This document shows positions 51,218 through 53,986 of a stretch of 53,986 nt of DNA, one piece after another. The position numbers were made by a program, and so were the translations under genes. Source of the DNA: an uncultured Eubacteriales bacterium (GTDB lineage: Bacteria > Bacillota > Clostridia > Peptostreptococcales > Anaerovoracaceae); assembly GCA_900315485.1 (NCBI GenBank), contig OMZI01000015.1, forward strand, positions 1 to 53,986, read 5' to 3'. The notes under the pieces are model-generated. The model worked only from the letters and a program-made list of their open reading frames with translations, had not been told where the DNA came from and did no database searches. Numbering within the stretch: position 1 is the stretch's first letter; each line of letters begins with the position of its first letter.

Positions 51218-52219
51218 ATGATGAAGAAACCACTTATAGCGGTCACGCTCGGAGACCCTGCAGGCATCGGCCCTGAGATCGTCGTAAAGACCATCGCAGA
51301 CAAGGACCTCTTTGCCGAGGCAAACTGCATCGTTCTCGGTGATGCGAAGATCGTAAAGCAGGCGATCGGGGTGACAGGTGTTGATCTTAAGGTCAACTGC
51401 GTAGAGGAACCGGCTGACGGTGACTACAGCGAAGGCGTTCTCAACATGATCGACTTAGATAACATCGACATGGACAAGTTCGAATACGGCAAGGTCAGCG
51501 CAATGTGCGGTAAGGCTGCTTTCGAATATATCGAGAAGAGCATCCAGATTACAATGGACGGCAAGGCTGATGCAGTAGCGACAGCTCCTATCAACAAGGA
51601 AGCTCTCCGCGCTGCTGAGATCAACTTCATCGGACATACCGAGATTTTCGCTGAGCTCACAGGAACCAATGACCCGCTTACAATGTTCGAGACCAACGGA
51701 ATGAGAGTGTTCTTCCTGACAAGACACGTATCACTTCGCGACATGCTCGACATGATCACCAAGGACAGAGTCATCGACTATGTTGAGAGATGTACTGAGG
51801 CTCTCAGAAGACTGGGAGTGACCGAGGGCACTATGGCTGTTGCAGGACTCAATCCGCATTCAGGCGAGCACGGACTGTTCGGCTGGGAGGAGGTCAACGA
51901 GATCGCACCGGCTGTTGAAGAGCTGCAGGCAAGAGGATTCGACGTCAAGGGACCTGTTCCGGCTGACTCGGTATTCCACCAGGCTGCACTCGGCAGATAC
52001 AACTCGGTACTGTCGCTGTATCACGATCAGGGACACATCGCAACCAAGACACTTGATTTTGACCGCACCATCGCTATCACAAACAGCATGCCTATCCTGC
52101 GTACTTCCGTAGACCACGGAACAGCATTCGACATCGCAGGCAAGGGAATCGCGGGCGCAGTCAGCATGATCGAGTCAGTAAGACTCGCGGCCAGGTACGC
52201 GCCTTACTTCACCAGGTAG
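51218..52219 (+). CDS. pdxA: PdxA-family 4-phosphothreonate/4-phosphoerythronate dehydrogenase
   Basis: The family oxidises a 4-phospho-hydroxyacid with decarboxylation. True PdxA makes the pyridoxine precursor; PdxA2 works in threonate/erythronate catabolism. The 333 residues include [12 protein letters not shown] (N-terminus), [13 protein letters not shown] and SLYHDQGHI (metal-binding His), and [14 protein letters not shown] (final His ligand). The neighbour kinase argues for the catabolic PdxA2 role over pyridoxal phosphate synthesis. GGAGG precedes the ATG. Confidence 0.92.
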
Positions 52220-52270
52220 GCGGCGTACATCAGAAGCGTCTCCCGGGTATTCGGGGGTGCCTGTTTGCAA

Positions 52271-52299
52271 TTGACAGAAACCTGAACAGGTGGTATATT
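52271..52299 (+). promoter_or_regulatory. Promoter of the tyrS leader
   Basis: Perfect TTGACA, exactly 17 nt, TATATT. Transcription should start near 52306, giving a leader of about 195 nt before tyrS. Confidence 0.85.
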
Positions 52300-52329
52300 T
52301 TCAATGTATCGGTTCAAAGGAGAATCCTG

Positions 52330-52392
52330 ATGAATACACACAGACTCGTTGCAGCTATCTATTATTACGACGGAGCTTCTATTGAAGCATAG
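52330..52392 (+). CDS. tyrS leader peptide with three consecutive Tyr codons
   Basis: 20 residues, MNTHRLVAAIYYYDGASIEA, with AAAGGAG 8 nt before the ATG. Codons 11-13 (TAT TAT TAC, 52360-52368) are all Tyr, directly downstream of leader segment 1 (52348-52355). Followed by mutually exclusive hairpins and a terminator before tyrosyl-tRNA synthetase. It fits a control peptide whose ribosome stalls when charged tRNA-Tyr is short. I know of no described counterpart for this gene, but cannot check. Confidence 0.85.
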   Translation: MNTHRLVAAIYYYDGASIEA

Positions 52393-52466
52393 TTTTGCTG
52401 CGACCGCATAAGAATCGATCAGAGATGTTGATTCCGGCTCCGCAGCGCAGGCTGCGGGGCTGTTTT
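52348..52466 (+). promoter_or_regulatory. tyrS transcription attenuator
   Basis: Segment 1 (52348-52355, GTTGCAGC) pairs with segment 2 (52397-52404, GCTGCGAC). Segment 2 can instead pair with segment 3 (CGCAGC, 52441-52446). Segment 3 with segment 4 forms the terminator. A ribosome stalled on the Tyr codons covers segment 1, freeing segment 2 to hold segment 3 and let transcription into tyrS continue. No T-box motif is present in the leader. Confidence 0.8.
52435..52466 (+). terminator. Attenuator terminator upstream of tyrS
   Basis: A 12-bp GC-rich stem (52435-52446 with 52451-52462, two G-U pairs) with loop GCAG, followed by TTTT (52463-52466). It ends 34 nt before tyrS. Confidence 0.85.
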
Positions 52467-52500
52467 GATAAGAAAGCTAAAAGGAAAGGGAGAAGTACTG

Positions 52501-53835
52501 ATGAAGAATTTAATTCCTGACAATGTCAGTGAGCACACCAATGTATATGACGTCCTGATGGAAAGAGGACTGATCGAGCAGACCACCAATGGCGAAGCTC
52601 TGAGAGAGCTGCTCGGCAAGGAAAAGATCAAGTTCTATATCGGATTTGACCCGACTGCAGACTGCCTGCACGTTGGACACTTCATTCCGATGATCACCAT
52701 GATGTATATGCAGAAGTACGGCCACACTCCTGTTTTCCTGCTCGGCGGCGGAACCGGCGAGATCGGCGACCCTTCAGGCAGAAGCGACATGCGTCAGGTC
52801 ATGACAATAGACACGATCGATGAGAACTGCAGGCAGTTCAAGAAGCTCTTTGATAAGTTCATCGATTTTGACGACGAGTGGAAATACGAAGGCAATGAGG
52901 GTGTATACAAGCCTGGTCACCAGAACAGAGAGCCTAAGCCTGGATATGCTGTCAGCGTCAACAACGCTGAGTGGATCAGACCTTGCAAGTTCACCGAGTT
53001 CGCAAGAGAGATCGGCAGACACTTCAACGTCAACACCATGCTGAGAGCTGACTGCTTCAAGAGCAGAATGGACAGAGACACAGGACTCTCGTTCTTCGAG
53101 TTCTCGTACATGCTGCTGCAGGCATACGACTTCTACGTAATGGCCCGCGACTTTGACCTCAAGGCACAGTTCGGCGGCAACGACCAGTGGTCCAACATCA
53201 TCGCCGGAGTAGACCTGACAAGAAAGGCTTGCGGCAAGGAAGTATTCGGACTTACAGTATCGCTGCTGACAACCAGCGAAGGCAAGAAGATGGGCAAGAC
53301 CGCCAAGGGCGCACTTTGGCTCGATGAGAGAAAATGCCCGGTATACGATTTCTTCCAGTACTGGAGAAACGTTGCTGACGCAGACGTCAACAAGTGCCTG
53401 AGAATGCTGACATTCCTGCCAATGAGCGAAGTCAACAGACTCTCTGCGCTTGAGGGATCCGCTATCAACGAGGCTAAAGAGATCCTCGCTTACGAAGTAA
53501 CCAAGCTGGTTCACGGTGAGGAGAAGGCAAAACAGGCTCTCGAGACAAGCCGTCAGATCTTCGCAGGCGGCGGAGTATCCGAGGATATGCCGTCAGTTGA
53601 GATGGAAAAGGCTAAGTTCGAAGGCGAAGGCATGGGCCTTGCAGCACTCCTCAAGGAGGCAGGACTCGAGCCATCGACATCCGAGGCTTACAGAACCATC
53701 CAGGGCGGCGGAGCAAGGATCAACGGCGAGCAGATCACAGACAAGAAGTTTGCTGTAACACTTGACTGCTTCAAGGACGGAGAGCTCGTACTTCAGAAGG
53801 GCAAGAAGAAATTCAAGAAGATCGTACTTGCATAA
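52501..53835 (+). CDS. tyrS: Tyrosyl-tRNA synthetase
   Basis: This class I synthetase charges tRNA-Tyr. The HIGH-type motif is CLHVGHF (about residue 58), GGGTGEIGDPSGRSDM follows, and the KMSKS counterpart is KKMGKTAKG (about residue 263). The C-terminal about 90 residues hold the S4 RNA-binding domain (SEAYRTIQGGGARING). I start at ATG 52501, with GGGAG 8 nt upstream, giving 444 residues. The frame opens at 52465, inside the attenuator T-run, so that start is not used. Expression is likely controlled by the Tyr attenuator. Confidence 0.96.
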   Translation: MKNLIPDNVSEHTNVYDVLMERGLIEQTTNGEALRELLGKEKIKFYIGFDPTADCLHVGHFIPMITMMYMQKYGHTPVFLLGGGTGEIGDPSGRSDMRQVMTIDTIDENCRQFKKLFDKFIDFDDEWKYEGNEGVYKPGHQNREPKPGYAVSVNNAEWIRPCKFTEFAREIGRHFNVNTMLRADCFKSRMDRDTGLSFFEFSYMLLQAYDFYVMARDFDLKAQFGGNDQWSNIIAGVDLTRKACGKEVFGLTVSLLTTSEGKKMGKTAKGALWLDERKCPVYDFFQYWRNVADADVNKCLRMLTFLPMSEVNRLSALEGSAINEAKEILAYEVTKLVHGEEKAKQALETSRQIFAGGGVSEDMPSVEMEKAKFEGEGMGLAALLKEAGLEPSTSEAYRTIQGGGARINGEQITDKKFAVTLDCFKDGELVLQKGKKKFKKIVLA

Positions 53836-53888: not shown

Positions 53889-53926
53889 AAGGGGCTGTCG
53901 CACAATAAAAAGTGTGGCAGCCTCTT
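53889..53926 (+). repeat. Long hairpin downstream of tyrS
   Basis: A 15-bp stem (53889-53903 with 53912-53926, three G-U pairs), loop AATAAAAA. The form GGGGCTGTCGCAC...GTGTGGCAGCC resembles palindromes repeated in many Clostridia. It carries no T-run, so is either a processing or REP-like element. Confidence 0.65.
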
Positions 53927-53932
53927 AACTTA

Positions 53933-53956
53933 CCCGCCTGTCGGCGGGCTATTTTT
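53933..53956 (+). terminator. Terminator at the window end
   Basis: CCCGCC-TGTC-GGCGGG followed by CTA and TTTTT (53952-53956). It probably ends the tyrS transcript. Confidence 0.8.
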
Positions 53957-53986
53957 GCGCAAGCAGCGGAAAGCCTTGAAAATGCT

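Follow-up and report, generated by a model that had tools for sequence, protein, structure and literature searches.

A predicted tyrosine-codon transcription attenuator before tyrS and related leaders at aromatic amino acid genes in Clostridia

Transcription attenuators of the trp, his, and phe type in Proteobacteria are mediated by the ribosome and include the Phe-codon leader of pheST. The textbook setting of the T-box is the synthetase gene of Firmicutes. To our knowledge, lists of the amino acids read by leader peptide attenuators do not usually include tyrosine.

Several precedents come close to the leader described here. In bacilli, His leaders precede the hisS paralogue hisS* and hisZ (PMC2965389); these too are Firmicutes synthetase-family genes with a leader peptide, and there the paralogue uses a T-box, but the amino acid is His, the gene is duplicated, and the lineage is different (PMC2965389). 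Histidine attenuators have been predicted in Peptostreptococcaceae, the B. cereus group, and Erysipelotrichales, likewise acting through a leader peptide but at his operons and with His codons (PMC9413887). The S. aureus ilv operon has a Leu-rich leader peptide attenuator with genetic evidence, again in a Firmicute but for Leu and a biosynthetic operon (PMC5794164). Aromatic codons occur in the C. glutamicum aroF leader, which carries Phe-Tyr-Phe (PMC4046766), and in uORFC-13-1 at Acholeplasma aroF (PMC8632094); both belong to other lineages. Synthetase genes with a cognate-codon leader have also been predicted for trpS and leuS in Streptomyces (PMC1262725) and for cysS in Rhodobacterales (uORFC-8-2; PMC8632094), which differ in reading Trp, Leu, and Cys and in belonging to Actinobacteria and Alphaproteobacteria.

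The DNA analysed here, called the window, is a stretch of 53,986 nucleotides (contig C21). Its source is a gut bacterium that belongs to the Mogibacterium group (Clostridia, Peptostreptococcales, Anaerovoracaceae). The genome comprises 2.52 Mb in 59 contigs and is 86% complete; the close relatives that carry names are MAGs, several of them from sheep and goat guts, with the labels Mogibacterium sp. or Clostridiales. Its tyrS leader shares with the proteobacterial type an ORF with regulatory codons, a 1:2/2:3/3:4 exchange, and a stop near segment 2, and pheST likewise encodes a synthetase; it differs in its Tyr codons, its target tyrS, and its occurrence in Clostridia, and no Rfam leader family scores over threshold. 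A tyrS T-box (RF00230) would serve the same gene and the same signal, charging of tRNA-Tyr, but by direct tRNA binding, which is absent here. An earlier note, made from the letters of the window alone, had called a Tyr leader peptide for a synthetase uncommon in Firmicutes. The literature fits this in part: among open-licence papers, judged mostly by title and abstract, we found no Tyr-only attenuator, no tyrS leader peptide, and no Clostridia family retargeted in this way, PMC12125101 likewise yielding nothing, but the His and Leu leaders above are precedents. We put at roughly 90% the probability that the tyrS leader is a classical ribosome-mediated transcription attenuator sensing charged tRNA-Tyr, and our best reading is that it belongs to a retargeted family of aromatic leaders.

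Anatomy and predicted mechanism of the tyrS leader

The promoter, Shine-Dalgarno sequence, 20-codon ORF with Tyr at codons 11 to 13, and three helices that the earlier note had described are all in the sequence (Table 1). The inner hairpin of the 1:2 domain adds one element to those in the note. A promoter scan gave one promoter-like site, as against a mean of 0.4 in shuffles, and a promoter of the same pattern lies 5' of 17 of 18 leader rows; downstream of it, the short ORF with its Shine-Dalgarno sequence is predicted to be translated. Helix 1:2 in the window has 8 bp with one G-U, and helix 2:3 has 6 bp (GCTGCG/CGCAGC), or 7 with a U-G when folded. The fold of 52300-52500 beats 200/200 dinucleotide shuffles (z -2.9). 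Two terminator-like sites were found by scanning (mean in shuffles, 0.2), and an intrinsic terminator stands between the leader ORF and tyrS, which starts with ATG at 52501. The leader's stop, TAG, ends 4 bases 5' of GCTGCGAC, where a terminating ribosome would cover segment 2. Downstream of tyrS, at window positions 53890-53960, inspection by eye suggests a terminator region: there are two apparent hairpins, and a T-rich tail follows the second.

Table 1. Positions of the tyrS leader elements and neighbouring genes in the window
Feature	Position	Strand	Details	Basis
pdxA, upstream gene	51218-52219		3' end 51 bases before the -35 box	
Sigma-70-type promoter	52271..52299	+	TTGACA 52271-52276, 17-nt spacer, TATATT 52294-52299	11/12 consensus
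Shine-Dalgarno of leader ORF	52316..52322	+	AAAGGAG	sequence
Leader peptide ORF	52330..52392	+	MNTHRLVAAIYYYDGASIEA; 20 codons, ATG 52330, stop TAG 52390-52392	conserved in relatives
Segment 1	52348..52355	+	GTTGCAGC; pairs with segment 2	sequence, folding, covariation
Control codons	52360..52368	+	TAT TAT TAC, Tyr 11-13	sequence
Inner hairpin of 1:2 domain	52375..52388	+	GCTTC/GAAGC, 52375-52379/52384-52388	covaries in relatives
Segment 2	52397..52404	+	GCTGCGAC; partner of segment 1 or segment 3	folding, pairing in alignment
Intrinsic terminator	52435..52466	+	stem 52435-52446/52451-52462, 12 bp, loop GCAG, TTTT 52463-52466	folding, terminator scan, covariation
Segment 3 core	52441..52446	+	CGCAGC; in both antiterminator (2:3) and terminator (3:4)	folding
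tyrS, tyrosyl-tRNA synthetase, controlled gene	52501..53835	+	444 aa	TIGR00234 409.2 bits, cut-off 113.8

From this arrangement we infer that ribosomes stall on the leader, that transcription terminates in vivo, and that tyrosine limitation is the inducing condition. When Tyr-tRNA is ample, the ribosome would reach the stop codon a few bases before segment 2 and cover that segment, so that the 3:4 terminator would form and transcription would end before tyrS. When Tyr-tRNA is scarce, the ribosome would stall on the Tyr run and cover segment 1; segments 2 and 3 would then pair ahead of the synthesis of segment 4, letting RNA polymerase continue into tyrS. Without translation, 1:2 would form and the terminator would be free again.

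Two other roles for the same stems must be weighed. The window copy has only a short U run (TTTTGAT) and the terminator is predicted, which would suit a leader acting mainly on tyrS translation or mRNA stability rather than on termination; such a role is very unlikely, since the tyrS Shine-Dalgarno sequence lies outside the leader stems and, by eye, 5-7 T follow the stem in 8 of 12 other aligned leaders. The hairpin could also be an ordinary intergenic terminator of pdxA, the ORF being a matter of chance: pdxA stops at 52219, 51 bases 5' of the -35 box, and a terminator does lie between the genes. That terminator sits downstream of the tyrS promoter, however, the DNA 5' of the promoter differs among leaders (by eye), and the Tyr codons and stems are conserved; terminator position and conservation together rule out a plain intergenic terminator for practical purposes.

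Conservation among tyrS leaders and the T-box

Upstream regions were scanned at 109 of 110 tyrS loci, including many pairs in which one genome is represented once in each of two collections; the remaining region began too close to the gene. Thirteen distinct tyrS leaders, the window's included, have a Tyr run in a short ORF and covarying stems. The distinct leader peptides include MNTHRLVAAIYYYDGASIEA, MNARRLVAAIYYYDRASIEA, MKDHNIVAAIYYYNEASYYED, MKNIVPAIYYYDGASYCEG, MTGINIVYIYYYNGSSSIEE, and MKGIVAAIYYYDYYSDAE, and a further peptide, MNRTLLVNNNNYYYYSS, precedes a tyrS 71% identical. Three consecutive Tyr codons occur in 20/20 tyrS-type leaders (a few of them near-identical), with TAT and TAC in five combinations.

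The stems are conserved by pairing. In the alignment of the 13 leaders (A2), helices 1:2 and 3:4 and the inner hairpin pair in 89.5% of cells, and sliding the partner columns by 1-3 lowers pairing to 36-53%. Ten pairs have both sides changed, as against a shuffle mean of 4.0, and 0/500 shuffles reach 10; these shuffle tests, like the Fisher tests below, still include shared ancestry. The alignment of related leaders that the earlier note had proposed as a check thus turned out in its favor. Helix 2:3 pairs in 90% of cells, with weak covariation (28/500 shuffles reach it) that may be expected because segment 2 is constrained to match segment 1 as well as segment 3. When the transcript was folded from a ribosome on the Tyr run to segment 4, 2:3 was in the minimum-energy fold of 13/13 leaders, consistent with an antiterminator that a stalled ribosome would free. 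This stalled state has -14.7 to -32.0 kcal/mol, inner hairpin included; cut back to 12 bases after the stop codon begins, the same transcript has only -5.8 to -14.5 kcal/mol. In L101, where segment 2 begins 17 bases past the stop, the two states are nearly equal (-14.7 vs -13.3). Of 19 tyrS leaders, 16 have their stop 3-7 bases 5' of the segment 2 motif, and in the other 3 this distance is 15-18 bases.

A tyrS-type leader was present in 17/47 genomes of the window's genus, by a hand count of model matches. The leaders L007, L008, and L016 have promoter and terminator without peptide and antiterminator, and other members of the genus have only a promoter before tyrS or no leader. Reduced or absent in several relatives, the leader is therefore dispensable. 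Its loss from many close relatives, like its membership of a wider family, lay beyond what the earlier note could see. In L157 (G025, contig C129), a gene for an IS66-type transposase separates the tyrS leader from tyrS.

A T-box reading of the leader, which the earlier note had rejected, fared no better in our searches. Nothing in the window attains the gathering threshold of any Rfam family, a covariance search of 51800-52800 found no T-box even at E<=10, and neither a specifier loop nor a T-box bulge was found in the tyrS leader. A T-box too diverged for the model might be argued from two sister-family genomes in which a T-box lies directly upstream of tyrS (G051:C24 and G041:C27) and from a below-cut-off T-box match (76.2 bits) before thrS in the window's own genome (L134, contig C20). 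Set against this are the empty search, a conserved core that consists of ORF and attenuator, and 20 sister-genus tyrS loci at which no T-box exceeds the gathering cut-off; the covariance search rules this reading out as far as we can judge. At the same 20 loci, an ORF scan of the 400 bases upstream recognised no Tyr leader. T-box matches per genome number 0-3 in 27 genomes of the genus (1/27 over the cut-off), 7-26 in 18 sister-family genomes, and 0-11 across 119 genomes of the family. It is plausible that the leader peptide replaced a tyrS T-box. Judged by sequence comparison, the conserved ORF and stems and the missing T-box support the earlier note's proposal of Tyr-tRNA attenuation.

Related leaders at other aromatic genes

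A covariance model built from the 13 tyrS leaders only (R1) matched 54/349 genomes of the family (E<=0.01), and its weaker matches were mostly related leaders at other genes: a lyase-like gene, aroF, pheA, and an ABC binding protein. An enlarged model of 48 leaders (R2) added tyrA and matched 91/349 family genomes (E<=0.001), among them 32/47 genomes of the window's genus (hand count). In the R2 alignment, 175 cells are changed on both sides as against 56.9 in shuffles (0/500), on an alignment that leans to the structure; alignment A3 was fitted to the R1 structure and its pair counts therefore lean towards it. A second family member in the window's own genome, MSHRKSLAAEYYYYYRRPVAVLL, lies at a contig end (C2:5521-5656).

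Target genes were named from BLAST matches to reference proteins, themselves identified via Pfam and NCBIfam. The 114 tabulated matches precede aroF (60), tyrosine phenol-lyase/tryptophanase-like genes (23, one a broken remnant), tyrS (19), tyrA (3), pheA (1), a TrpX-like binding protein (1), and other sequences (7). In this last group are the tyrS leader that the transposase gene separates from tyrS, three leaders that sit at contig ends, two in G105 with odd targets, and a single false match. The gene kinds are thus six: tyrS, tyrosine phenol-lyase-like, aroF, tyrA, pheA, and TrpX-like binding protein. Seven R1 matches (L183, L186, L188, L192, L194, L199, and L200) had no leader with a Tyr/Phe run and were left out as false; L186, at a contig end, is followed by an aroF-type start but shows no such run. 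Also left out were weak R1 matches at tyrS remnants (G006:C18, G012:C62, and G024:C4) and a duplicate (G026:C42), and five further aroF matches in the family lie outside the table (G138, G344, G187, G100, and G098). In G105, leaders with Tyr runs and terminators (L242 and L168) precede genes without an evident tyrosine link: one stands before an AP-endonuclease-type gene with an sbcD-type gene behind it, the other before an HD-domain gene. A cobalamin riboswitch match lies near the aroF leader in L165 (1009-1233, opposite strand).

Wider searches matched 73/393 genomes of the order, all in Anaerovoracaceae except G492, a false match. Among 391 genomes of the class, 20 that lie outside the order matched; inspection of all 20 gave 13 aroF and 2 pheA leaders and 5 false matches (G717, G788, G654, G875, and G644), and for one aroF case, G687, a script found no clear codon run. 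A phylum sample of 194 genomes gave no true match besides the window's own genome (G927 and G955 were false). Members at aroF and pheA therefore occur in several Clostridia families, and members at tyrS, lyase, and tyrA genes were seen only in Anaerovoracaceae, a range that holds for sampled genomes and strict filters and so does not show absence beyond it.

The codon run follows the gene: Tyr at tyrS, lyase, and tyrA genes, Tyr and Phe at aroF, and Phe at pheA. A short ATG ORF, chosen by its Shine-Dalgarno sequence and blind to residues, was found in 112/114 matches, the two exceptions being L285, a false match, and L238, whose run is in a TTG-start ORF; counting the seven discarded R1 matches, the figure is 112/121. 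At least three Tyr or Phe residues stand in the control zone of 112/112 leader ORFs as against 8/1712 shifted windows (396 of the 1712 held such a short ORF), although the Tyr enrichment is partly built in because R1 and R2 also model the Tyr-codon letters. Gene identity and the Phe/Tyr split are not built into either model. Phe occurs in the control zone of 58/60 aroF leaders and 6/44 tyrS, lyase, and tyrA leaders (Fisher 1.3e-19), or 50/52 and 6/36 when only distinct zones are counted; by residues, the Tyr-gene leaders have 211 Tyr and 7 Phe and the aroF leaders 254 Tyr and 186 Phe (Fisher 1.1e-30), and these p-values overstate significance since related leaders are not independent. All three pheA leaders have a Phe run, one in Anaerovoracaceae and two in another Clostridia family. 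That related leaders carry runs matching the gene they precede also strengthens the earlier note's case for Tyr specificity at tyrS.

This exchange of codons bears on whether the signal might instead be free tyrosine or the nascent peptide, with the same RNA anatomy and a TnaC-like arrest. Lyase-type leaders precede an enzyme of a family that degrades Tyr or Trp, where induction by a plentiful amino acid would be more sensible. Outside the Tyr/Phe run, however, the peptides vary freely (MNTHRLV.., MKDHNIV.., MTENGIV.., MNRTLLVNNNN..), and the run itself has Phe in place of Tyr at pheA and a mixture of the two at aroF. The frequent Ala-Ala in the peptides arises because segment 1 reads GCAGCA, and inspection found no conserved residues beyond the run and these Ala codons, as an arrest peptide of the TnaC type would need; we consider such a signal improbable and retain tRNA charging.

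The release step may work differently at aroF, because the position of the stop varies widely there: in the 53/60 measurable leaders it ranges from 32 bases 5' to 38 bases 3' of the start of segment 2, often inside or past that segment, and it falls between 20 bases before and 12 after the start in 20/53. We favor, with some reserve, the view that in Clostridia one homologous attenuator RNA was copied before aromatic genes of six or more kinds and retuned by Tyr/Phe codon swaps with its stems kept, partly taking over the T-box role of sister families.

Tyrosine supply and significance of the family

The lyase members stand out, because a gene induced when Tyr runs short would be expected to supply the amino acid and not to break it down. 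The lyase-like protein passes the cut-off of an NCBIfam subfamily named tryptophanase (NF009709) but falls below both equivalog cut-offs, that for tyrosine phenol-lyase and that for tryptophanase; among proteins of solved structure, its best relatives are tyrosine phenol-lyases. The TrpX-like binding protein likewise scores below the TrpX cut-off. In L260 (G005, contig C14), a Tyr/Phe leader precedes a broken remnant of the lyase-like gene. A DAHP synthase match was found in 18/45 genomes of the genus and was strong in 16/45; counted by hand, strong matches (>250 bits) occurred in 6/24 genomes with a lyase-type leader and 10/21 without, which gives no firm footing to the idea that lyase leaders accompany the loss of aroF. 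Since many genomes of the genus have no DAHP synthase match, a supply role of the lyase-like enzyme would fit.

Collectively, these leaders place a predicted leader peptide switch on tyrS, where Firmicutes synthetase genes use the T-box by the textbook. Related RNAs with Tyr or Phe codons matching the downstream gene amount to a natural codon-swap experiment, which makes the replacement of one sensing system by another and the evolution of attenuator specificity testable, and the covariance model can help annotate the control of aroF, pheA, tyrA, and tyrS in Clostridia. If the proposed copying and retuning of one attenuator RNA is true, the enzyme encoded by the lyase copies would serve tyrosine supply.
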